Virus record (IMG/VR): IMGVR_UViG_3300035034_000730
Span: 1 to 29,633 of that record
Length of the DNA stretch: 29,633 bases
From: a virus
Strand: one strand, 5' to 3'
Shown here: positions 2,645 to 29,470 of the stretch, in pieces
How positions within the stretch are numbered: position 1 is the stretch's first letter
Layout: each line of letters starts with the position of its first letter
The notes under the pieces: generated by a model
What the model was told of the DNA's origin: nothing
The model's input: only the letters and a program-made list of their open reading frames with translations
Database searches by the model: none
Made by a program: the position numbers and the translations under genes

Positions 2645-3697
2645 TTATTCGATAAAGTCGGCGGCTGTAAGTTGTGCGCTTGGGTTTTCTGAAATGATCT
2701 TCATATGGAATGCTGTCATGGTAATTATCTCACCATGTGTTCTCTCGTGTAACTCACAATGCCATCCTAAATATAAACTTATAGGCTTAGGTCTCCTAAT
2801 ATACGTAACATAGACCTGTGGTAATATAAAACTTTCTCCGTCATAAACCTGTATTTTACTCTCAGATAATGTGCCTACAGGTGCATCTGCACGGGTTCGT
2901 TCATTGGGATCCTTAGTGAAATCCTTCTCACTATCTACGATTCTTATATCTGTTAGTGTACCAGCAGCTAACGTATATTGGGTACCTATATTGATCGTAT
3001 TATTAGTATTAGTATCCACAGAAGCAGCAGCAATTAATAGTTCAGCTGTATCAGGAACATAAGTACCGTCTGGCGCTTCCAGGAACATAGTGTCCTTCTG
3101 ATATAGTCCTCGGTAGTCTTCCCAGTATAATGTCCAGCCTGCGGGCATAGCATTACGTAAGACCTCTATCAGATAGAATTTCTCATTAACATCTCCGAGT
3201 TGACTTATAAGTGCAGTATAATTGGTAGGGTCAAACAACGTAAATGTCCCTCCAGCCAGGATATTAATCTGGATCGTAAGGTTCGTGTAGGGAGGGGATT
3301 GACTAAATACGAGTTTAAAATAATTCTTTGTAATAGCAGCTGTTGCGGTGGTAGCTTGTAAGTCCGTATTGCAGTCATAGGTTATGTCTGCCCGGGATTT
3401 TATATGAAAGAGGAGGTTGGCTGGCAACCTCCCCTCTACATAATCGAGACTAGTGGTAACTACAGGGACAGAGATATTTCGTTTGACTAGTGATTCTAAA
3501 TCAGCAAGTCTCTTGGTATTATCTTCGTAGCCTCTCTGCTTTTTATTACTGAGTGGGTCCATCCTACTACGGATAAACCGGTGCATACTTTTGGTTAGCA
3601 ATAAATCTCGTACAGCGGGGTGGAAAATTTCAAAGGCATTAGAATCAATCCTTTGAAGCTCCTGCTCCAGCTCTTGATGCATTTGCGTTACCAGCAT
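2645..3697 (-). CDS. Virion structural or head-tail connector-like protein, about 350 aa
   Basis: The frame is open up to 3760, but the first 21 residues of that longer version are almost all Arg and Lys and come from reading the Lys-rich tail of the upstream gene out of frame, so I prefer the ATG at 3697 (MLVTQMHQ). An ATG at 3682 is also possible. The N-terminal 80 residues are helical; the centre is beta-rich. The C-terminal section has YIRRPKPISLYLG followed by CELHERTHGEIITMTAFHM, a pattern (short CEL motif, then a helix beginning with His-Thr) seen in connector or ring proteins of Bacteroidota phages. It probably acts at the head-tail junction. It overlaps the upstream gene by about 53 bases. 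Confidence 0.7.
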   Translation of the reverse strand: MLVTQMHQELEQELQRIDSNAFEIFHPAVRDLLLTKSMHRFIRSRMDPLSNKKQRGYEDNTKRLADLESLVKRNISVPVVTTSLDYVEGRLPANLLFHIKSRADITYDCNTDLQATTATAAITKNYFKLVFSQSPPYTNLTIQINILAGGTFTLFDPTNYTALISQLGDVNEKFYLIEVLRNAMPAGWTLYWEDYRGLYQKDTMFLEAPDGTYVPDTAELLIAAASVDTNTNNTINIGTQYTLAAGTLTDIRIVDSEKDFTKDPNERTRADAPVGTLSESKIQVYDGESFILPQVYVTYIRRPKPISLYLGWHCELHERTHGEIITMTAFHMKIISENPSAQLTAADFIE

Positions 3698-4607
3698 TCT
3701 CAGTCTCTTTTTCCTTGGTCTTTTTGTTGTCCCTCTTCTTCGCCGCTTCCTTATCTCCACGTGACAGTCCTACACGTGCTTTCAGTGTAGCAACCGCTTT
3801 TGAATTAGAGGGGTTCTGAATAAAAGTCACAGCCTCATCTACAGATGTGCCCATAATTCCAAAACCATCCATTTGATAAGTACTTCCAATTACCTCTATG
3901 GCATTCTCAGAAATACCCTTTTCTATCAATGACATATCCTGAAGATTTTTATCATTGACAGTTTCAAGGAACAGAGTAGGATCCAGCTCGTAGAGCTTTT
4001 CCAACTGCAGCTCTTTGTCTTGAATATCAAGAAGTTCCGGATTTATAATATGCCCAGTCTTCTTTACTCTCACAAGCTTACCGGAGAATACTCGTAGTAT
4101 TGTATCCATAAAGTCCTCATCTGCAGTGACTTTAATGAACTCTCCATAGGCTCTTTTCTTAGCAGATAGCTTTTTATGTTTTACATCTCGCTCTACAGTA
4201 GGATCATCTATGTAATAACGATGACGTCCTACGATCACCTCTGTCTTTGAGTTAGCTACCTCTGGGTGTGCCTCACAAAACCGATACTTAATGTAATCAA
4301 GTTCTACAAGTAGCCTCCCATCCTTATCCTTACCAATCTCTAATTTGAAATGTGGTTCAGATTCTACAGGTACTGAGATTCTGAGATTCTTCCAGAAATC
4401 TAATACCTCTTTACGCCAGGTTGGTTCATTCGGCGCAATACCCAGAATAGAAGGGAGGAGGGCTTCCTCCTCCTCCCGACTTAATCCTGATAGTGGTACA
4501 GATCCTTTATACACAGATCCGATTGTCTGTTTAGACTCCGAATACACATTCTTAGGTATCCGGGTTTTTATCTCTACTCTTCTGATTTCTACTACTTTAC
4601 TGCTCAT
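3645..4607 (-). CDS. Structural protein downstream of capsid gene, 320 aa
   Basis: It lies 13 bases after the major capsid gene and is presumably co-expressed with it. The N-terminal half contains REEEEALLPSILGIAPNEP and WRKEVLDFWKNLRISVPVE, the middle is mixed alpha/beta, and the last 45 residues are a low-complexity Lys/Glu/Asn/Ala tail probably disordered. Length and position fit an auxiliary capsid or head-completion protein, which is inference. I recognise no catalytic motif. The coding run of four Glu codons and following codons forms an inverted repeat at 4453-4477. The stop lies inside the 5' end of the next gene, so the two are likely translationally coupled. Confidence 0.7.
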   Translation of the reverse strand: MSSKVVEIRRVEIKTRIPKNVYSESKQTIGSVYKGSVPLSGLSREEEEALLPSILGIAPNEPTWRKEVLDFWKNLRISVPVESEPHFKLEIGKDKDGRLLVELDYIKYRFCEAHPEVANSKTEVIVGRHRYYIDDPTVERDVKHKKLSAKKRAYGEFIKVTADEDFMDTILRVFSGKLVRVKKTGHIINPELLDIQDKELQLEKLYELDPTLFLETVNDKNLQDMSLIEKGISENAIEVIGSTYQMDGFGIMGTSVDEAVTFIQNPSNSKAVATLKARVGLSRGDKEAAKKRDNKKTKEKETENAGNANASRAGAGASKD

Positions 4608-19906: not shown

Positions 19907-20176
19907 ATGGACATTTTTAAACATACAGACGGGTTCTACACAGGTAGGGCTCTGCTGCGCCGTGGTCTCATCGTATGTTATAATTGTGGTGAGCTATGGC
20001 CTAAGGATAATGCAAAGTTCAAGGAAGCTGTATGTACATGTGGAGAGGATCTAATGTTTATTCGAGAGGCTTATGCCAAGGACGTTGCTATTAAATCATT
20101 TTCCATAAAAGATATTATCAATGACAAAAACGGAAAAGCAGACCCAATTTCAAGAGCTGTGGGTGAAGTCGGATAG
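19907..20176 (+). CDS. Small zinc-finger-like protein, 89 aa
   Basis: Residues 24-27 (CYNCGELWP) and 43-45 (CTCGED) give a C-x2-C ... C-x-C set typical of a small zinc ribbon. A basic RRG segment precedes it. The C-terminal 30 residues are overlapped for 56 bases by the start of the SF2 helicase in another frame. It may assist the helicase or bind nucleic acid. It ends in TAG, which shows that TAG is a normal stop in this phage. Confidence 0.65.
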   Translation: MDIFKHTDGFYTGRALLRRGLIVCYNCGELWPKDNAKFKEAVCTCGEDLMFIREAYAKDVAIKSFSIKDIINDKNGKADPISRAVGEVG

Positions 20177-21413
20177 TAATGATTATGGAAAATCACCTGC
20201 CGGCACACTGCAAGCAGCCACAGGGTTTGGTAAGACCAGGATTGCGCTTAATGTTATCAGAGATATGAATGAGCGTAATCCTGATTTTACTACTCTGATT
20301 ATCGTACCTACCAGGCATCTCAAAAATCAGTGGGAGGAGCAGGTAAGTGAACGGAAACTTAACAATGTAATAGTAGGTGTAATAAACACATATTGTAAAC
20401 AGATTAATCAGACTGACCTATTGGTACTGGACGAGATCCATAACTATGCAGCCCCTGAATTCTATAATCTGTTGAAGCATAGTCACTACAATTTTATACT
20501 AGGATTGACTGCTACTATTGAGCGACATGATGATAACCATTATATGCTGGAGCGTCATGCTCCGATAGTAATGAATATCACATTAGAGGAGTGTAGGAGG
20601 AATGGCTGGGTAAGTGAGTTCAAAGTCTACAATGTCAAGCTTAAGTTAGGAGATGTAGATAAGGAGATGTACCGTAGTATGGATAAGAAGTACCACTACC
20701 ACTTCTCCATATTTGAGCACAATTTTGATGTGGCTATGAAGTGCTTAATGAATGGTCCATTCAGAAAGAATTATGCAAGTAGGATGGGATACAGCCCTAC
20801 TGATATAGGTATGCATGCTGCTCAGTGGAATCGGTTAATGCATGCTCGTAAACAATTCATTTACAGTGCTCCATCTAAGATACAGGCTGTCAGAGAATTG
20901 ATATTGAAGTTCCCGGACAAGAAAGTGATTACATTCTCTCAATCTATTGACTTTGCGGATCAACTCACCGAGGAGTTAGGGGATGTAGCTGTATCCTACC
21001 ACTCTAATATGGAGACTCGTATGATAGATGGTAAGAAATTTGGAAAGACCAGATTGAAACGACTGGCTTTGAAGAAATTCCAGGACAATCGTTATAAAGT
21101 ACGTGTGATAAATACAGCCAAGGCTCTTGATGAAGGATTTGATGTAGAGGATATCGATATGGCAATAGTGGCATCATCGACATCTTCTAAGCGTCAGAAT
21201 ATTCAGAGAACTGGTCGGGCAGTAAGGTATGTAGAGGATAAAGTGGCTGTAATTGTTAACCTATATCTCCCGAATACACGTGATGAATCATGGCTTAAAT
21301 CACGTCAAACCCGAGATGTAAAACCTATTTATACAGATGACCTCAACGACATCACATTTGATCCTGCTCAGAGAGAAAATTCTAAGCATGAGAAACGATT
21401 TCAACTGTTCTGA
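20121..21413 (+). CDS. SF2 DEAD/DEAH-type helicase, 430 aa
   Basis: Motifs are in canonical order: motif I ATGFGKT (33-39), Ia IIVPTRHL (60-67), II DEIH (104-107), III GLTAT (128-132), IV-type KKVITFSQS (267-274), V near INTAKALDEGFDV (330-342) and VI QRTGRAVR (362-369). This matches the RecG/RapA/Type III-restriction-like branch of SF2 phage helicases. The domain between motifs III and IV is short and Lys/His-rich. It probably unwinds or remodels DNA during replication or recombination. ATG at 20121 overlaps the upstream zinc-finger gene by 56 bases; no later Met precedes motif I, so the start is needed. Confidence 0.93.
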   Translation: MTKTEKQTQFQELWVKSDSNDYGKSPAGTLQAATGFGKTRIALNVIRDMNERNPDFTTLIIVPTRHLKNQWEEQVSERKLNNVIVGVINTYCKQINQTDLLVLDEIHNYAAPEFYNLLKHSHYNFILGLTATIERHDDNHYMLERHAPIVMNITLEECRRNGWVSEFKVYNVKLKLGDVDKEMYRSMDKKYHYHFSIFEHNFDVAMKCLMNGPFRKNYASRMGYSPTDIGMHAAQWNRLMHARKQFIYSAPSKIQAVRELILKFPDKKVITFSQSIDFADQLTEELGDVAVSYHSNMETRMIDGKKFGKTRLKRLALKKFQDNRYKVRVINTAKALDEGFDVEDIDMAIVASSTSSKRQNIQRTGRAVRYVEDKVAVIVNLYLPNTRDESWLKSRQTRDVKPIYTDDLNDITFDPAQRENSKHEKRFQLF

Positions 21414-21543: not shown

Positions 21544-22072
21544 ATACGTGAAGTTCCTTACCAGACATAAGATTGATGCTAACCAATTCCTTTTTATTTA
21601 TTTATTGTACAAGAAAGAGTGGAAGAATATACAGAGACTCCGGGATGCAGATAATTTATTATTTGATCCGGAGGATCTTCAATATCTGGAAAATATAGGT
21701 ATGATTCAGGACATGAATAAAGTCGGAGAGCATTACGCAGACATGTATATCGTGACTGACAAAATAGTATCTGATTTATTTATGGATACTGACATAGCGG
21801 CAGAGGAATTCTTTGAAGAATTCCCTCCATTTATGTATATTAATGGTCAGAAAGCCCCTATCAGGGGCGTACCGAAAGACCTGTTTCTCAAAAAGTATCT
21901 AAAATACATACGTAGGAATCCTAATGTACATCGCAAGATAATGAAAGCTATGCATGAGCAGCGAGAATCTGGTGCTATTAAGATGAGAATAGATAATTGG
22001 GTATTTAGTGAAATGTGGAAACTTGATGATGCTCAGGAAACAGGGACTAGTTATGGCAGTAGAGAAGTTTAA
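21524..22072 (+). CDS. Possible replication loader or winged-helix protein, 182 aa
   Basis: Start at ATG 21524 (MIVDVTEYVKFLTRHKID). The N-terminal 80 residues read like a winged helix: DANQFLFIYLLYKKEWKNI, then FDPEDLQYLENIGMIQD, then YIVTDKIVSDLF. The C-terminal half is basic and helical (KKYLKYIRRNPNVHRKIMKAM). The position directly before a DnaB-type helicase and after SF2 helicase fits a helicase loader or initiator-like protein, the role of DnaD/gp59-type proteins; this is inference, no AAA+ motif is present. It overlaps the helicase start by 20 bases. Confidence 0.6.
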   Translation: MIVDVTEYVKFLTRHKIDANQFLFIYLLYKKEWKNIQRLRDADNLLFDPEDLQYLENIGMIQDMNKVGEHYADMYIVTDKIVSDLFMDTDIAAEEFFEEFPPFMYINGQKAPIRGVPKDLFLKKYLKYIRRNPNVHRKIMKAMHEQRESGAIKMRIDNWVFSEMWKLDDAQETGTSYGSREV

Positions 22073-22994
22073 TGGGTTACCTCTCATCTCATCGGATACA
22101 GCAGCTAAACGTGCTAAAGAGCATTTGGATGATCATGAATTTAAAGGTGTTATCTGCCGGTGGCCTAAGATAAATGAAATCCTTAATGGTGGTTTTAGAT
22201 ATGAGAGAGTATTTATGCTTGCTGGTATGTCTGGTAGTGGTAAGAGTTATTTCCTGAATGTATTACTGGAGGATTTTACGGATATCAAATTGAATCCTAA
22301 ATCTCCTAAGATTTTGCATTTCAGTTTTGAGATGATGTCTTACATAGAGGCATTGAGACACGTTGGCAGGCAAGCTCAAGTATCTTACAGTGAGATGGTG
22401 AGTCCTGACAATGCACTGAATGATACACTTAAGGATCAACTGAAGGTATTACTCGACAAGTATGGTGAGTTACCAATCTATATTGTGGAAACTGCCGGCA
22501 ATCTTGATCAGATGTGGGACACCATGGAGGAGTTTAAGAAATCATTCCCGGACGACGATGTGATTGTCTCTGTTGATCACACCCTGCTTGCAAGACATAA
22601 GCGGGAACGTGATGACATTGAATTGCTTGCCAACATGGGTAAGATGTGTATGAGTGGTAAGAAAGAATTCGGCTACATGTATATACTACTCAATCAATTG
22701 AATGATAAGATCGAGGACCCTAATAGACTATCTGATAAACGGTTTCACTTCCCTACTAAGAGAGATATTCATGGATCTAAACAGGTTTACTGGGCATGTG
22801 ATGGTGTATGTGTTATACATCGGCCAGAAATGCTCAATATCTCTAAGTATGGAACTGCGCCAAATCCGGATAGAACATTAGGATGGTATACCGATGGCTT
22901 GTTAGCTTGTCACTGGTTAAAGATCCGAGAGGGTGTACCTGGTATTATAAGGATGCGAGAGCGTCTGAATTTTGGAACATTAGAACAATGGTAA
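22053..22994 (+). CDS. DnaB-type replicative helicase (RecA fold), 313 aa
   Basis: From ATG 22053 (MAVEKFNGLPL) the protein is a single RecA-like SF4 domain. Walker A is GMSGSGKS (58-65), the catalytic Glu lies in FSFEM (90-94), Walker B is VIVSVDH (170-176), H3 is LLNQLN (212-217), and the H4 region is KQVYWACDGVCVIHR (243-257). It lacks the N-terminal primase-binding domain of bacterial DnaB, so it must contact primase or loader differently. It should unwind the fork ahead of the polymerase. The gene is directly followed by the P-loop ATPase (TAA then ATG with no gap). Confidence 0.9.
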   Translation: MAVEKFNGLPLISSDTAAKRAKEHLDDHEFKGVICRWPKINEILNGGFRYERVFMLAGMSGSGKSYFLNVLLEDFTDIKLNPKSPKILHFSFEMMSYIEALRHVGRQAQVSYSEMVSPDNALNDTLKDQLKVLLDKYGELPIYIVETAGNLDQMWDTMEEFKKSFPDDDVIVSVDHTLLARHKRERDDIELLANMGKMCMSGKKEFGYMYILLNQLNDKIEDPNRLSDKRFHFPTKRDIHGSKQVYWACDGVCVIHRPEMLNISKYGTAPNPDRTLGWYTDGLLACHWLKIREGVPGIIRMRERLNFGTLEQW

Positions 22995-23696
22995 ATGGCT
23001 AAGAGTAAATTTGAATGTGTCGTACTGGATACTATAAACCAGATTCAGAATGACCTGTATATTGATCTGTTAGAACAAAAGGGAAAGGCAACCTATGACG
23101 ACTGGAAAGACTATGGAGTTGAGATATTACAACTACTCCATTTCATCAAAAAGACCGGAGCAGTACCAGTTTTGGTACTCGGTTACGAAGGGTCTGGGAA
23201 GACTATGGGAGCAGATAGACTCAACCCCAGTACTACCTTATACATCAACGCTGATAAGAAGCCCCTGGTACTGTCTAACAGAGACAAGTATATCCGTGGA
23301 GAGAATTATGCTGAACCAACCACATACGCAGACGTAAAGGGGTTAATTCAGTTGGCTAATGAGAGTAAGGGGAGTCACCCACTCATTATATTTATAATGG
23401 GGCATATTGAGACGTACCGTGGTACAGAGGGAGAGATACGTGAGCGATTGAAAGTCTTGGGTAAGATGGCTACCAAGTTAAATATTGAAGGCTCAGTAGT
23501 ACATTGTTATTACACTCAGATTAACTCTGGTGAAGAAGATCCAGCAAATCATTACCGATTAACCACTGCGAATTCAGGTTATAATACTGCCCGTGCACCT
23601 TACGGGTATTTCGAAGAATATACTATCCCGAACAATCTTCAAACCGTATTGGAGAAGATTAAGAAGGATGAGTTTTTTGTTAACAATCAAAATTAG
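22995..23696 (+). CDS. P-loop ATPase, Sak4/RecA-like with permuted motif order, 233 aa
   Basis: A perfect Walker A is at residues 63-70 (GYEGSGKT), followed by LYINADKKP (82-90) and a hydrophobic strand ending IFIMGH (132-137). The acidic strand expected for Walker B, VVLDTINQIQ (9-18), lies before Walker A instead of after it, followed by DDWKDYGVEILQLL. In Sak4-type phage ATPases (the AAA_24 nucleotide-binding family) the order is Walker A, then the VVID strand, then the strand ending in H. So this looks like a circular permutation. Sak4-like proteins assist annealing and recombination with SSB. The ATG directly abuts the helicase stop. It is probably a replication/recombination accessory; the family call is inference. 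Confidence 0.75.
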   Translation: MAKSKFECVVLDTINQIQNDLYIDLLEQKGKATYDDWKDYGVEILQLLHFIKKTGAVPVLVLGYEGSGKTMGADRLNPSTTLYINADKKPLVLSNRDKYIRGENYAEPTTYADVKGLIQLANESKGSHPLIIFIMGHIETYRGTEGEIRERLKVLGKMATKLNIEGSVVHCYYTQINSGEEDPANHYRLTTANSGYNTARAPYGYFEEYTIPNNLQTVLEKIKKDEFFVNNQN

Positions 23697-23704
23697 ATTG
23701 ATTT

Positions 23705-24133
23705 ATGGCTCTTTTAAGATTGGGTAACACCCGGACCTCTCAGAATGATGATGGTCAACCACGAATTGAGGTAAAGAAAAACAACCTCAAAATGAGCGTA
23801 GCAGCAGTGCTCGCATTAGGAGCAGTTAACGGTGAGTCTAACATAGACGTAGCTGTTGACTCGGATACAGGAGAGGCATATGTTGCTCTTATTCCTGCAG
23901 CTGAGGAGGGAAAGCCACAGAAAGGAAGAAAGCTTTCCGATACCGGCTATTTAAATGGTCAGGCTATTCACAGCCAGCTTGAGGATAAGGCTGAATCTTT
24001 TATTATAGACATGAAAGACAATCAGGAATCCTTTGGCCATACTTGGTACAAGTTGATACCTGAAGTTCCAGAGACTGAGGAAGCTTCGGATAAGTCTTCC
24101 AAGAAAGGTAAGACAGCAGCTGTAACGGCTTAA
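23705..24133 (+). CDS. Hypothetical protein, 142 aa
   Basis: The protein begins MALLRLGNTRTSQNDDGQPR, then VKKNNLKMSVAAVLALGAVN and beta strands (NIDVAVDSDTGEAYVALIP), and ends in a low-complexity acidic then Lys-rich tail (ETEEASDKSSKKGKTAAV). It sits between the ATPase and the 215-residue protein, both likely concerned with single-stranded DNA. The disordered tail could bind protein partners, as SSB tails do. The family is unknown. It begins eight bases after the ATPase stop. Confidence 0.62.
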   Translation: MALLRLGNTRTSQNDDGQPRIEVKKNNLKMSVAAVLALGAVNGESNIDVAVDSDTGEAYVALIPAAEEGKPQKGRKLSDTGYLNGQAIHSQLEDKAESFIIDMKDNQESFGHTWYKLIPEVPETEEASDKSSKKGKTAAVTA

Positions 24134-24903: not shown

Positions 24904-25890
24904 ATGCTAAACATAAAGCCATCATTAAACAAAACTCTAATACTGGATACTGTATCTGAGGAAGAGTTATTTTATTATTACACAGGACAACGAGTAGTTT
25001 ACGATACCAATATACAATCCCCACTACGGCATGATAAAAAGCCCACGTGTAGGATTTATCCAAAGTTTAATGGTACAGGTATATGGATGGTTGACTTCTC
25101 TGGCGCCTTTTCCGGTGATGCATTTGACATCATACGGCAGTTACACCCTGGTATTACATCTTTCTACCAGCTATTATGCTTGATTGCATATGACCTGGAT
25201 ATACCACATGATAGAGAGGGATATTGGGGTGGTGATTCATTTAGGAATCCACATCTACCATCCGATGGTAAAGTAATAGATCGACCATCGGCCAGTAAAG
25301 AAAAGAAAGGTATTAGTGTTGTAAGGAGACACTGGGTAGAGTCCGATAAGGACTACTGGGCACCTTACCATATTAGTTTAGATACACTGGAGGAGTATTG
25401 TGTAGTACCAGTACGATGTGTGTTTATTGATAACAACATAGTGTATGGTTATAGAATAGTTGATAAGTGCTATGGATATTACTATGGAGATAATGAGTGG
25501 AAACTCTACTATCCTCTTAGAGATGTTAATCGATTTCTGGGAAATAGTACTAAACTCCAGGGCTATGAACAGCTTCCCGGGAGAGGGCCGTTACTTATAG
25601 TTACCAAAGCATTAAAGGATGTGATGTCATTCAGGGAATTAAGAATACCTGCAGTAGCTCCACAGGCAGAGGGACATGATATCAACCACCTCGATGAGTT
25701 AAAAGAGCGATTTGACCAGATAGTTACCTGGTATGATCCAGATGCAGCAGGCCGTAGAGCTACTAAGAAAGCTAAGAAATTAGGACTACAATCCATTACC
25801 ATAGAGGATGGTAGTGCGAAAGACCCTGCTGAGCTCGGTATGAAATATGGACTGAGTGCTATTACAGAATATTTAAAACCTTATATCTAA
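24904..25890 (+). CDS. DnaG-like primase with degenerate zinc and Toprim motifs, 328 aa
   Basis: The N-terminal part follows the CHC2 primase pattern: SPLRHDKKPTCRIY (39-52) matches the usual CPFHxDKxPS segment, and FSGAFSGDAFDIIR (65-78) matches the G-GDxFDF end, but the zinc Cys/His residues are mostly absent. The Toprim part has LLIVTKALKDVMSF (230-243) where a catalytic primase has VEGxxD, and WYDPDAAGRRAT (276-287) for the DxD motif. The first Glu is replaced by Thr/Lys while both later Asp residues remain. So it may be a variant active primase or a changed Toprim protein. It should lay RNA primers for the polymerase and helicase encoded just upstream. Confidence 0.82.
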   Translation: MLNIKPSLNKTLILDTVSEEELFYYYTGQRVVYDTNIQSPLRHDKKPTCRIYPKFNGTGIWMVDFSGAFSGDAFDIIRQLHPGITSFYQLLCLIAYDLDIPHDREGYWGGDSFRNPHLPSDGKVIDRPSASKEKKGISVVRRHWVESDKDYWAPYHISLDTLEEYCVVPVRCVFIDNNIVYGYRIVDKCYGYYYGDNEWKLYYPLRDVNRFLGNSTKLQGYEQLPGRGPLLIVTKALKDVMSFRELRIPAVAPQAEGHDINHLDELKERFDQIVTWYDPDAAGRRATKKAKKLGLQSITIEDGSAKDPAELGMKYGLSAITEYLKPYI

Positions 25891-26132
25891 TGGTAGTGAG
25901 ACATTTCTTGCTCGGAAATCAGTTTGTTGAGTACTACAAACACCAACGAGCATTTGGATTAATAACTGAATTCAATCTAGGACATAATCCCATACTTGTA
26001 AAACAATATCGTACTGAAGAGGAGATGATTGCCTTTACACAAGGACTCAATCTTTGTAAGGATGTTAGTGATTTTGTTGAAGTGGATAAGTCTGATTTTG
26101 AGTACATAGAAAACCAACTAGATGAAACTTAA
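25890..26132 (+). CDS. Hypothetical protein, 80 aa
   Basis: The ATG shares one base with the primase stop (TAATG), and its own end overlaps the rIIA-like gene by 11 bases, so it is coupled to both. The protein is acidic at the C-terminus (EVDKSDFEYIENQLDE) with a beta/helix N-terminal half (HFLLGNQFVEYYKHQRAFG). No motif is recognised. It may be a partner of the primase or of rIIA, by location only. Confidence 0.58.
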   Translation: MVVRHFLLGNQFVEYYKHQRAFGLITEFNLGHNPILVKQYRTEEEMIAFTQGLNLCKDVSDFVEVDKSDFEYIENQLDET

Positions 26133-28233
26133 AGAACAGATAGAACTGGTCAGGGAAGGTGATAATTTCTCCGGAGTTGACTTTGATGTAAACCCAGATG
26201 ACATCGGTCGTATGCTTAAGGCATTTTCTGACGGTATTTATTCTAACAAGATAGGTTCTATGATTCGTGAGATTGCTAGTAATGCAGTCGATGCGAATAT
26301 AGAATCAGGCAATGATAATCACCCTATTATATTATCACTACTCGGTACGTATGACAACCGGGTATTAGAGATAAAGGATGTTGGTCCAGGTATGACACGA
26401 GAGTTTATTCAACGTATTTACACTCGTTACTGGGCTTCAACTAAACGAGAGAGCAATAAATATATTGGTGCATTTGGTATAGGTTCTAAGTCCCCTCTCT
26501 CTTACACGAATAGGTTTGAGTGTATAACTTGCGTAAATGGTACTGAATATCACTACCTTATACATAAGGGAGAAAAGGTACCCAGACTTGAGTGCATAAA
26601 TGAAGCTCCTACAACAGAGCCTAATGGTACCAGGATACGAATCCCTATTAAGAGTTACGATGTAGCGTCTGTACAGAAGGAGGCAATTAATCAACTTGCC
26701 TATTTTGATAACGTGTATTTTGAAGGATTACAAATAAGTAATGACTTCAAATTCTACAAGGAGAGTAAGTACATTATCCGTAGTCCGTCAGCGTATAATG
26801 ATGTACATATAGTGCTCGGACGTGTAAGTTATCCTATTGACTGGATAGCATTGGGTGAAGAGTCTGTTCAAATACCTGTAGGGTTGATCTTTGACATAGG
26901 TGAATTGACTGTTACTATTAACAGAGAACAGATTGAGTATACCAAGGTCAATAAGAAGAAGATACTCAAACGTTTGAAGGAAGTTATTGATGAACTCACA
27001 GTACAATATAGCTCTCAGTATCCTGTATGTGATACTTTAATAGAGTATATGGATCAGAAGGCTGAGATGGCAGGGGACTGGGCTATCAGTCCAGATATTA
27101 CTATTAATGTTTGGCGTCTGGGTATTTCATCCAAGCCTGCCCATACATTTAATTTTAACCCAGATGGTAGTGCTTCTTTTACGTGCTATGAAAGGCACCG
27201 GTACTTAAAACCAAATGGTACAGTTGTTAAAACAGGGCCTGAGGAATATCACCTCCGTGCTTTAGTATCTGCAGGTCGTAAAATCATAGTGAAGTCAGAG
27301 GGGACACGCTACAACAAGTTGACTAACATGTATATCCTGGATCATATGGATCAATCGTGGGTATGGGAAGATGCAGATATTTATCAAGCTGCTAATGATA
27401 CTAACTTACCAGAATATCAGAAGAATTATTATCTACGTAAGGATCAGGAACTTAAAGAGTGTGAGCCATATGTCGTTCACTATGAGGATATTGAACCTAC
27501 TACGACTTGGATAAATAATAGGTATCAGGAATTGCTGAGGAAATCGAGGGAGCGTTCTGCATTGCTAAAGCAGAATGGGTCTATAAATGTTATGCGGGGA
27601 TATATATCTGCGTATACGGACTACCAGTTCTCTTTATATTTCCGCAGGCAGTCACTTAATATCAAGGAGGTTATGAATAGTAAATACCACATTGTATATG
27701 GTACGCAGGAAAATAAAGAGGATTTTATATCCGTGGCTATGATCCTGTCTGGTGTTTATAGTATACGCACTTACTGGAGGTTCTACCTCGTATCTAAGGC
27801 CAATATGAAGTACCTCCAAAACACTCCTAATGCATCTTATTATACTGATTTTATGGACGGTAAACACAAATTATTCAGACGGCTGGCCACAGCATACTGG
27901 CTCCAAGATCAAAATCTGGAGCAGTACAATGTTGATCTAAATATAAGAGTTGCCAAAGTAGTATCTGAGCTTATTAAATTCCGTGATAACAATTCATGGG
28001 AATTAGATACAGCCTTGAAAGATGCTATAATGGTGCTTGCCGGGGAGAATGATTTGATTAGTCCGGTAGCAATAAGGGTTGTTGAACGTCTTAAGATCAC
28101 CAAGGAGAAGTATCCTCTTTATTTTTGTTTAAGGAGTAGTACATCGGAGGCAGCTATACGAGAGTATACATTTTTAAAAACAAAAAAACTACGAGAAAAT
28201 GGCGAAAGTACAATTTCAGCAGTTAAGGGATGA
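26122..28233 (+). CDS. rIIA-like: rIIA-like GHKL ATPase, 703 aa
   Basis: The N-terminus carries a full Bergerat ATP-binding fold: N-box E50, N54, D57 (REIASNAVDAN), G1 box DVGPG (86-90), and G2 box GAFGIGSKSPLS (116-127). This matches T4 rIIA and related GHKL proteins of Hsp90/MutL/gyrase type. The rest (about 580 residues) is mixed and lacks other recognised motifs. It is followed by an rIIB-like gene with a 35-base overlap, the pairing seen in T4. T4 rIIA/rIIB allow growth on lambda-lysogenic hosts by countering RexAB; here the target is unknown. The protein is probably cytoplasmic or membrane-associated. Confidence 0.88.
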   Translation: MKLKEQIELVREGDNFSGVDFDVNPDDIGRMLKAFSDGIYSNKIGSMIREIASNAVDANIESGNDNHPIILSLLGTYDNRVLEIKDVGPGMTREFIQRIYTRYWASTKRESNKYIGAFGIGSKSPLSYTNRFECITCVNGTEYHYLIHKGEKVPRLECINEAPTTEPNGTRIRIPIKSYDVASVQKEAINQLAYFDNVYFEGLQISNDFKFYKESKYIIRSPSAYNDVHIVLGRVSYPIDWIALGEESVQIPVGLIFDIGELTVTINREQIEYTKVNKKKILKRLKEVIDELTVQYSSQYPVCDTLIEYMDQKAEMAGDWAISPDITINVWRLGISSKPAHTFNFNPDGSASFTCYERHRYLKPNGTVVKTGPEEYHLRALVSAGRKIIVKSEGTRYNKLTNMYILDHMDQSWVWEDADIYQAANDTNLPEYQKNYYLRKDQELKECEPYVVHYEDIEPTTTWINNRYQELLRKSRERSALLKQNGSINVMRGYISAYTDYQFSLYFRRQSLNIKEVMNSKYHIVYGTQENKEDFISVAMILSGVYSIRTYWRFYLVSKANMKYLQNTPNASYYTDFMDGKHKLFRRLATAYWLQDQNLEQYNVDLNIRVAKVVSELIKFRDNNSWELDTALKDAIMVLAGENDLISPVAIRVVERLKITKEKYPLYFCLRSSTSEAAIREYTFLKTKKLRENGESTISAVKG

Positions 28234-29470
28234 TGATGAAGTAATATTCATCATCACTATTGACGGTAATGTCTATACCAGGGGATTTCCGGAAGACTTT
28301 GCATTAAAGGTTCGTGGACTTATAAATAAGGTACGATCTGATGATCCTCTGTATATGGATAAGCAACCACTGATTGAAGAATTACGTGGATACTTTGATA
28401 AGTCGATAAGACGTCCATTCCACGGAGATATAGTTCAGGATATGGATGGTACATTGTATTTAAAAGATACTAGTATACCTATCCCTGATGAGCTAAAGGA
28501 TCGTATCCTGTATTACATTGATGAGTTGATATCTATCGACTCATTGATTAACTTCTGGAAGCTATGTCTGCTTAATCCGGATGAACGTGCAAGAGAGGAT
28601 GTCTACAAGTTCACAGAGAAGCATAAACTTCCTATTACGGATCATGGATACTTCATTGCCTATAAATCTGTAGTTCCTAAGGAAGACCCGTTACTGAATG
28701 AGTTCATTGATAAGCAGAAAACTAAGGTTCCTGGCTCATTTGACCTCAATAGCATTTATGTTATAAAGGATAGAGTATCAGGAGTTTATGCACTTAGCTT
28801 CACCAATACGATTGCAAATGACAATCTGATGGGGTCTGACTACGATGTGGATGATGAGAGTTATAGTGAGGATGGGTTCCATGAAGAACCAGAGGAAGTA
28901 GAGGATAGTACTGTAGTAGGTTCACTCGGAGATCTTATCCAGCAACGTAACTCAGGTGATATTACATTTACTGATATTCACTCCCGGACGATGACCATCA
29001 AGACTGATACTGTAGTCCATATGGACAGGAAGCAGTGTGATTCAGATCCCAGGAAAGATTGTTCTTACGGTCTTCATATAGGTGGTGTCAATTATGTAAA
29101 CAGCTTCGGTGCAGGTATGAAAAGCCGTAGGGTATTATTATGCTTGATCAATCCAGCCAACACTGTAGCAGTACCATCATACAACGCTGATAAGATGCGG
29201 GTATGTGAGTATTATGTATATGGTGTTAGTGAAATGGAGGACGAGCGTATCAAACCTATTGAAACCAGTTACTTTGAGTCCGATTATAAGGACTACGAGG
29301 AGGCTATGATGGTGAAGAAGTTAGAGGAATTACGCCATCTTAATACAGATGCGCTGATTAGTGGTGTTGATATTGAGGTAGCTCAGTCTATCATTCGTTC
29401 ACGTATAACTCATCTTAATGATGATAATAGTAACAGTACCACGACCTCCTCGCAGGTTCCTGGTGTCTAA
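28199..29470 (+). CDS. rIIB-like: rIIB-like protein, 423 aa
   Basis: Characteristic rIIB segments are present: NFWKLCLLNPDERAREDVYK (118-137) and ITDHGYFIAYKSV (146-158), then CSYGLHIGG (288-296), as in T4 rIIB-type proteins. An acidic insert (YDVDDESYSEDGFHEEPEE, about 215-233) separates the halves. The start ATG lies 35 bases inside the rIIA-like gene, coupling the pair. The C-terminal tail is Ser/Thr/Asn-rich and overlaps the next gene by 53 bases. The pair is expected to act together in protecting the phage from host exclusion systems; this is known for T4 and inferred here. Confidence 0.88.
   Translation: MAKVQFQQLRDDDEVIFIITIDGNVYTRGFPEDFALKVRGLINKVRSDDPLYMDKQPLIEELRGYFDKSIRRPFHGDIVQDMDGTLYLKDTSIPIPDELKDRILYYIDELISIDSLINFWKLCLLNPDERAREDVYKFTEKHKLPITDHGYFIAYKSVVPKEDPLLNEFIDKQKTKVPGSFDLNSIYVIKDRVSGVYALSFTNTIANDNLMGSDYDVDDESYSEDGFHEEPEEVEDSTVVGSLGDLIQQRNSGDITFTDIHSRTMTIKTDTVVHMDRKQCDSDPRKDCSYGLHIGGVNYVNSFGAGMKSRRVLLCLINPANTVAVPSYNADKMRVCEYYVYGVSEMEDERIKPIETSYFESDYKDYEEAMMVKKLEELRHLNTDALISGVDIEVAQSIIRSRITHLNDDNSNSTTTSSQVPGV

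Follow-up and report, generated by a model that had tools for sequence, protein, structure and literature searches.

A Sak4-type phage ATPase with a non-circular permutation of its RecA-like core

A gene located in a virus contig of 29,633 nucleotides (IMG/VR record IMGVR_UViG_3300035034_000730, positions 1 to 29,633, called the window below) very probably encodes a Sak4-type ATP-dependent single-strand annealing protein (SSAP) with a RecA/Rad51-like core, in which the first two blocks of the chain have been exchanged and which would nevertheless adopt the same fold. Three blocks are distinguished here: block A carries β1, Walker A, α1, β2 and α2, block B the Walker B strand (β3) and helix α3, and block C strand β4 and the C-terminal half. 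Normal-order Sak4 proteins read A-B-C and the window protein reads B-A-C. To our knowledge, this is a known family, Sak4, with a chain order so far unreported.

The coordinates of the gene, its motifs and its neighbours are collected in Table 1. The open reading frame starts at the base directly following the stop codon of a DnaB-type helicase gene. A first-pass annotation, made from the sequence without database searches, had noticed a Walker B-like strand ahead of Walker A. Its reading frame and its placement of VVLDTINQIQ at residues 9–18 and of GYEGSGKT at residues 63–70 match ours exactly (the strand IFIMGHIET occupies residues 132–140), and the observation itself is confirmed and goes beyond chance. 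A search of PHROGs matched the protein to phrog_2872 (Sak4-like; E 1.6e-28), the match being split into two stretches. Pfam AAA_24 (PF13479) also matched in two stretches, with 25.3 bits, slightly below the curated cut-off of 27 bits, whereas a normal-order sister protein scored 53.4 bits and covered nearly the whole profile. Blocks B, A and C together fully account for the 233 residues and leave no room for additional RecA domains: this is a core-only RecA. The proposal that the gene might specify a new variety of phage recombination ATPase thus holds for the recombination ATPase and not for the new kind, since the phrog_2872 match identifies a Sak4 orthologue with a rearranged chain.

Table 1. 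Features of the permuted gene and of the surrounding cassette in the window
Feature	Coordinates	Strand	Remarks
SF2-type helicase	20121..21413	+	upstream cassette member
DnaB-type helicase	22008..22994	+	upstream cassette member
Permuted Sak4-type ATPase gene	22995..23696	+	233 aa plus stop
Block B, residues 1–55	22995..23159	+	Walker B strand (β3) and helix α3, now N-terminal
Walker B-like strand VVLDT, residues 9–13	23019..23033	+	D12 invariant
YDDWKDYG signature of helix α3, residues 34–41	23094..23117	+	motif interrupted in the L002 and L017 genes
Block A, residues 56–128	23160..23378	+	β1, Walker A, α1, β2, α2
Walker A GYEGSGKT, residues 63–70	23181..23204	+	
Block C, residues 129–233	23379..23693	+	β4 and C-terminal half, usual place
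GHIET, residues 136–140, end of β4	23400..23414	+	H137 is the invariant His of normal-order Sak4
142-aa protein	23705..24133	+	also encoded at some of the permuted loci
SSB-like protein, 215 aa	24162..24809	+	sister-phage homologue with SSB-type tail DDDMPF
DNA primase	24904..25890	+	downstream cassette member

A canonical HMM was built from 37 normal-order proteins, including the biochemically proven HK620 Sak4, and searched against 28 non-redundant permuted proteins. All 28 gave three non-colinear domains in the order B-A-C, corresponding to profile positions ~74–120 for B, ~4–72 for A and ~120–213 for C, and the block B domain had an i-E value between 3e-3 and 8e-11 throughout. For the window protein (total E 6.6e-35) the domains are B at residues 4–53 (i-E 5.5e-5), A at 57–127 (8.5e-12) and C at 118–223 (1.1e-19). 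Reciprocally, an HMM of the permuted family matched every normal-order protein: in 35 of the 37 the match falls into three non-colinear pieces, and in the other two (from Shewanella 3/49 and Aeromonas 4_D05) into the A and C pieces only. When each normal-order protein was left out in turn it gave a single colinear match to the HMM of the remaining ones, and 1,000 shuffled permuted sequences yielded no domain at i-E <= 0.01 with the canonical HMM. The non-colinear matches confirm the order β3-α3-β1(P-loop)-β2-β4 which had been proposed as a departure from that of Sak4/AAA_24 ATPases.

The conserved residues follow the blocks. All 28 permuted proteins have D12, whose counterpart in the 37 normal-order relatives is the Walker B aspartate, invariant there too. 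The residues G63, G66, G68, K69, D12, H137, K161 and E165 are kept in both orders, and D12, T13, D35, W37, G63, G66, G68, K69, G136, H137 and E139 are invariant in an alignment of 15 permuted members. There is no canonical Walker B after residue 70; the first-pass annotation had noted that the strand after Walker A (IFIMGH) lacks an acidic Walker B residue. The acidic residues found there, D87 and E139, align with D33 and E134 of L152, a normal-order protein from the sister lineage which also keeps its own Walker B aspartate, D82; they correspond to other positions in normal-order relatives, in which the Walker B aspartate is separate, and a canonical Walker B in this part of the chain was rejected on these grounds.

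One competing idea is an ordinary P-loop protein to which an unrelated strand and helix have been added at the N-terminus, with a coincidental likeness to Walker B. It draws on the behaviour of the N-terminal 55 residues, for which a separate comparison with AAA_24 had been suggested: they match the Walker B region (profile positions 62–119) weakly, with an E-value of 0.015, and unrelated tail-protein profiles match block B at similar E-values. Block B by itself also aligns with PHROG 124 over the Walker B region (profile positions 106–158, E 5.7e-4) and, by sequence, with the same region of a solved Sak4 (PDB 8rc5). Against a coincidence, the canonical HMM places B at its canonical ~74–120 positions in every permuted protein, and the B piece is absent between A and C, where the normal-order sister has 46–50 additional residues. 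BLAST of the window protein against L152 accordingly shows a gap of ~46–50 residues between A and C, and residues 6–51 match out of order. Taken with the reciprocal and shuffle controls, these results make an unrelated extension highly improbable and we have set it aside.

The protein had been described as circularly permuted. The change of order stands; its circular nature does not. A circular permutation of A-B-C gives only BCA or CAB. Here block C stays C-terminal while A and B trade places, and since BAC is no rotation of ABC, the permutation is non-circular; a circular one was discarded from both the HMM domain order and the block census described below. The window gene is a Sak4 gene with adjacent blocks A and B swapped, and its product belongs to Sak4 by descent and not by topology.

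An initial scan of viral contigs with the single sequence gave no relatives and alignment queries were required; alignment-based scans of IMG/VR then provided many permuted members. The nearest are L128, L129, L130, L131 and L241 (41–49% identical). Among annotated phages, a protein search identified gp58 of Flavobacterium phage FpV4 (Fipvunavirus), 34% identical over residues 1–222, with VDTLTGIQ and DKWKDYG ahead of GEPGTGKS. It has the same B-A-C order and the same cassette as the window gene, is annotated 'Sak4-like' only, with no mention of the rearrangement, and several of its close relatives bear introns. A permuted gene adjoining DnaB and primase also occurs in a contig of a Neisseriaceae genome bin (L044, CALMTA010000080.1), probably a phage contig inside a bacterial bin. 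A block-HMM scan of 12,899 ORFs from 241 loci revealed 179 ABC ORFs (133 distinct core sequences) and 54 BAC ORFs (33 distinct core sequences), seven AC ORFs, which come from permuted genes broken up by an insertion, and no mixed or intermediate architecture (BABC, ABAC). The rearrangement may have gone, for example, through a duplication of A-B followed by two losses. Two trees from block-wise alignments separate permuted and normal forms with support of 99.7/100 and 100/100. With HK620 as root, all 28 permuted proteins group in a single clade beside L152/L158/L168, a sister placement which is only moderately supported, and the permuted form has a single origin in this tree. The window being a metagenomic virus contig, an assembly chimera or rearrangement artefact might be suspected. 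The cultured phage FpV4 has the same order, and this recurs, within the same cassette, in 33 distinct sequences of varied metagenomic origin, which reduces an artefact to a negligible likelihood; it was rejected.

Normal-order Sak4 genes were found in HK620 (HkaL), with similar genes in Vibrio, Acinetobacter, Shewanella, Aeromonas and Stenotrophomonas phages, and in L020, L047 and L152-L158/L161. The L152 protein reads MATLVQVLGEPGTGKTFSMRNLDPEGVLYINGDKK ... IKVIVIDTLNSIMSDKEM..KKKGYDKWMDLAGD ... DLTVFCIAHTEDY, the counterpart of the N-terminal block of the window protein being located between Walker A and the β4 strand. The sister lineage as a whole (L152-L158/L161-L169, e.g. IMGVR_UViG_3300024359_000009) keeps the A-B-C order at the same cassette position as the window gene, with 31% identity to the window protein in block A, 26% in B and 42% in C. 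The window itself is a fragment of a crAss-related phage. crAss001, DAC15 and an unannotated human-gut scaffold carry Sak4 in the normal order, and in several Suoliviridae a P-loop ATPase of normal order is encoded close to the primase. As the crass-like phages examined have the normal order, the rearrangement is restricted to one lineage among the crAss-related phages examined. Elsewhere in the window, the large terminase (9763–11727, minus strand) is about 40–42% identical to those of Crassvirales, and two adjacent and slightly overlapping genes, 26122–28233 and 28199–29470, match RIIA and RIIB lysis-inhibitor profiles.

Nearly all permuted genes lie, as far as the contigs extend, in a cassette with the order helicase, (190-aa protein), DnaB, Sak4, SSB-like protein and primase. 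The normal-order gene of the L152 lineage occupies the identical position in the same cassette, and identities between the window and L152 are 35% for the helicase (E 1e-64), 30% for DnaB (7e-38), 32% for the primase (6e-36) and 25% for the SSB-like protein (7e-17). Profile and homology matches across this cassette bear out the setting first assigned to the gene, with a DnaB-type helicase on one side and an SSB-like protein on the other. The first-pass annotation had proposed that two neighbouring products might be single-strand DNA proteins. The larger one has no match to an SSB profile, and its L152 homologue has a weak one (E 0.06); it may be called SSB-like through this chain of homology only, and the 142-aa product received no assignment. 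The L152 homologue (L152:4701-5288) ends in DDDMPF, as do bacterial SSB tails, and the window protein has no such tail. An SSB gene adjoins up to 80% of sak4 genes (PMC5928155).

Several of these genes are interrupted. In Flavobacterium phage Fpv1 and its relatives, a group I intron (RF00028, 59.3 bits, Rfam) carrying a homing-endonuclease-type ORF is inserted between WKD and YG of the Sak4 gene, a position which separates most of block B from the remainder. Joined together, the two exons specify the same protein as the uninterrupted FpV4 gene (100% identity), which indicates that block B and the remainder form one functional unit. The corresponding positions in Fpv1 are L002:3158-3391 and 3394-3981; the public annotation omits exon 1, and Fpv1 gp63 is annotated from an upstream TTG inside the insertion. 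A LAGLIDADG ORF interrupts the gene of L017 (3781-5010) within DKWKDYG, and those of L041 (3410-4004) and L160 (1637-3077) are interrupted within the P-loop, GEPG|TGKS; Rfam recognised none of these three insertions as introns. In every interrupted permuted gene the upstream piece starts with block B. The neighbouring DnaB-type helicase gene is apparently interrupted in L129 (1768-2836), where a probable endonuclease ORF precedes it, and in L017 (2621), and mobile introns seem to be frequent in the replication genes of these phages. Normal-order Sak4 genes are also broken, after a TNG motif and by ~1 kb, in L049 (1471-2010 and 3044) and L050 (1477-2037 and 3009), which suggests an insertion at yet another conserved site.

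Structure prediction had been proposed in the first-pass annotation; AF2 gave the expected elements in the expected order. The window model (15-member alignment; pLDDT 75.7, pTM 0.81; means of the five models 42–76) has strands and helices at E8-12, H15-29, H42-53 / E57-63, H71-75, E81-85, H111-123 / E131-142 onwards. The L152 model (pLDDT 91.1, pTM 0.90) has E3-8, E27-31, H59-72 / E78-82, H84-94, H103-119 / E126-137 onwards. Foldseek with the L152 model retrieved 451 PDB chains at E <= 0.001, the best being the Sak4 SSAP 8rc5 (E 9.2e-9), followed by RAD51 paralogues, RecA and KaiC. The permuted window model had no PDB match at E <= 0.001 in the same order-dependent search. Since Foldseek needs a colinear order this is expected, and the lower confidence of the model may contribute; the result gives no positive proof of the fold. 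Its best viral match was A0A1B0WM31, whose 217 aa are the length of the truncated Fpv1 protein without exon 1.

The window protein is most likely an active ATP-dependent ssDNA annealing protein which builds the usual active site from a reordered chain. ASCE ATPases have the strand order 5-1-4-3-2, and the rearranged chain would fold into this same sheet: helix α3 would enter β1 rather than β4 and α2 would enter β4 rather than β3, each linker spanning to a neighbouring strand. The linkers are short (KKTG-AVPVLVLG from B to A, SKGSHP-LIIFIMGH from A to C) and would fit an exchange of A and B between neighbouring strands. D12 would lie beside the P-loop lysine K69 and serve as Walker B, and Walker A, D12, H137, K161 and E165, which are kept whichever way the blocks run, support a working site. 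With ATP, the protein would bind ssDNA, cooperate with the putative phage SSB, whose gene lies a short way downstream, and anneal complementary strands during phage replication and recombination. Such activities have been measured for HK620 Sak4, which binds ssDNA and anneals strands in an ATP-dependent manner and is stimulated by its own SSB (PMC5928155).

Two other readings accept the permutation and differ in what it does. Since a single short linker now ties block B to the rest as a terminal segment, and the Sak4 of phage 52A forms Rad51-like filaments (PMC11846896), the N-terminal β3-α3 arm might complete a neighbouring protomer in a filament or ring. Walker B would then be supplied in trans, and the rearrangement would be functional and not neutral, with protomers exchanging their Walker B arms and the ATPase site complete only in the assembly on which ATP use would depend. 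If true, the protein would be a natural example of a RecA-type ATPase in which the order of the motifs ties catalysis to assembly. The single-chain AF2 model (pTM 0.81, mean pLDDT 77–82 over the first 30 residues) and an α3-to-β1 linker only a few residues long (KKTG-AVP), with little room for an arm to swing across, argue against such an exchange, and we consider both the swap and a functional role of this kind unlikely. The protein could also be a degenerate ATPase, which binds ATP, has lost turnover and acts as a scaffold or ssDNA binder: permuted proteins lack some residues conserved in the normal order around the old α3-β4 junction (e.g. R122 and D124 of L152), and a Walker A mutant of the phage PA73 Sak4 retained some recombineering activity (PMC5928155). 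In 28 permuted proteins that have diverged from one another, Walker A, D12, H137 and E165 have stayed unchanged or almost so, which argues for a working site, and loss of turnover seems to us similarly improbable.

The protein can be compared with several known systems. It shares with HK620 Sak4 (HkaL; phrog_2872), a RecA-like core-only SSAP, the three blocks, Walker A, the Walker B aspartate, the β4 histidine and the glycine and glutamate of block C; the SSB gene adjoins the HK620 gene and an SSB-like gene lies near that of the window. The two differ in their order, A-B-C for HK620 and B-A-C here, and the former is known from measured activity (PMC5928155) and the latter from its sequence. 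The Sak4 of Staphylococcus phage 52A (PDB 8rc5, ORF016; PMC11846896) has a Walker B strand and α3 which match block B by sequence; it is of normal order and is the best solved match of the L152 model, whereas the permuted model has no significant order-dependent match. Outside the family, the circularly permuted GTPases (YawG/YlqF, cpRAS; PMC2430557) are likewise of the P-loop NTPase fold with reordered motifs, but they are GTPases and truly circular, while the window protein is a RecA-type ATPase with a non-circular change. In the non-circularly permuted HK97-fold capsid protein of phage BPP-1 (PMC3863775) two adjacent elements are swapped and the third is unmoved, as here; that protein has another fold and no recognisable sequence similarity to the unpermuted form, in contrast to the window protein, which retains such similarity. 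Searches of the open-licence literature brought up no paper describing a permuted RecA, AAA or Walker ATPase (RecA/ASCE).

Non-circular permutations of protein folds are rare. Their origin is hard to study, as the forms before and after may share no recognisable sequence, as with BPP-1. In Sak4 both orders survive in the same gene cassette, and the closest pairs still share roughly 25–45% identity in each block, which makes the event, with its breakpoints and what it costs in function, directly accessible to study. There is also a practical blind spot: order-dependent searches (the Pfam cut-off, Foldseek) miss proteins in which every block is present. RecA-type ATPases are among the best studied recombination machines, and the two forms of Sak4 provide a natural test of how important the connectivity of the chain is to them.
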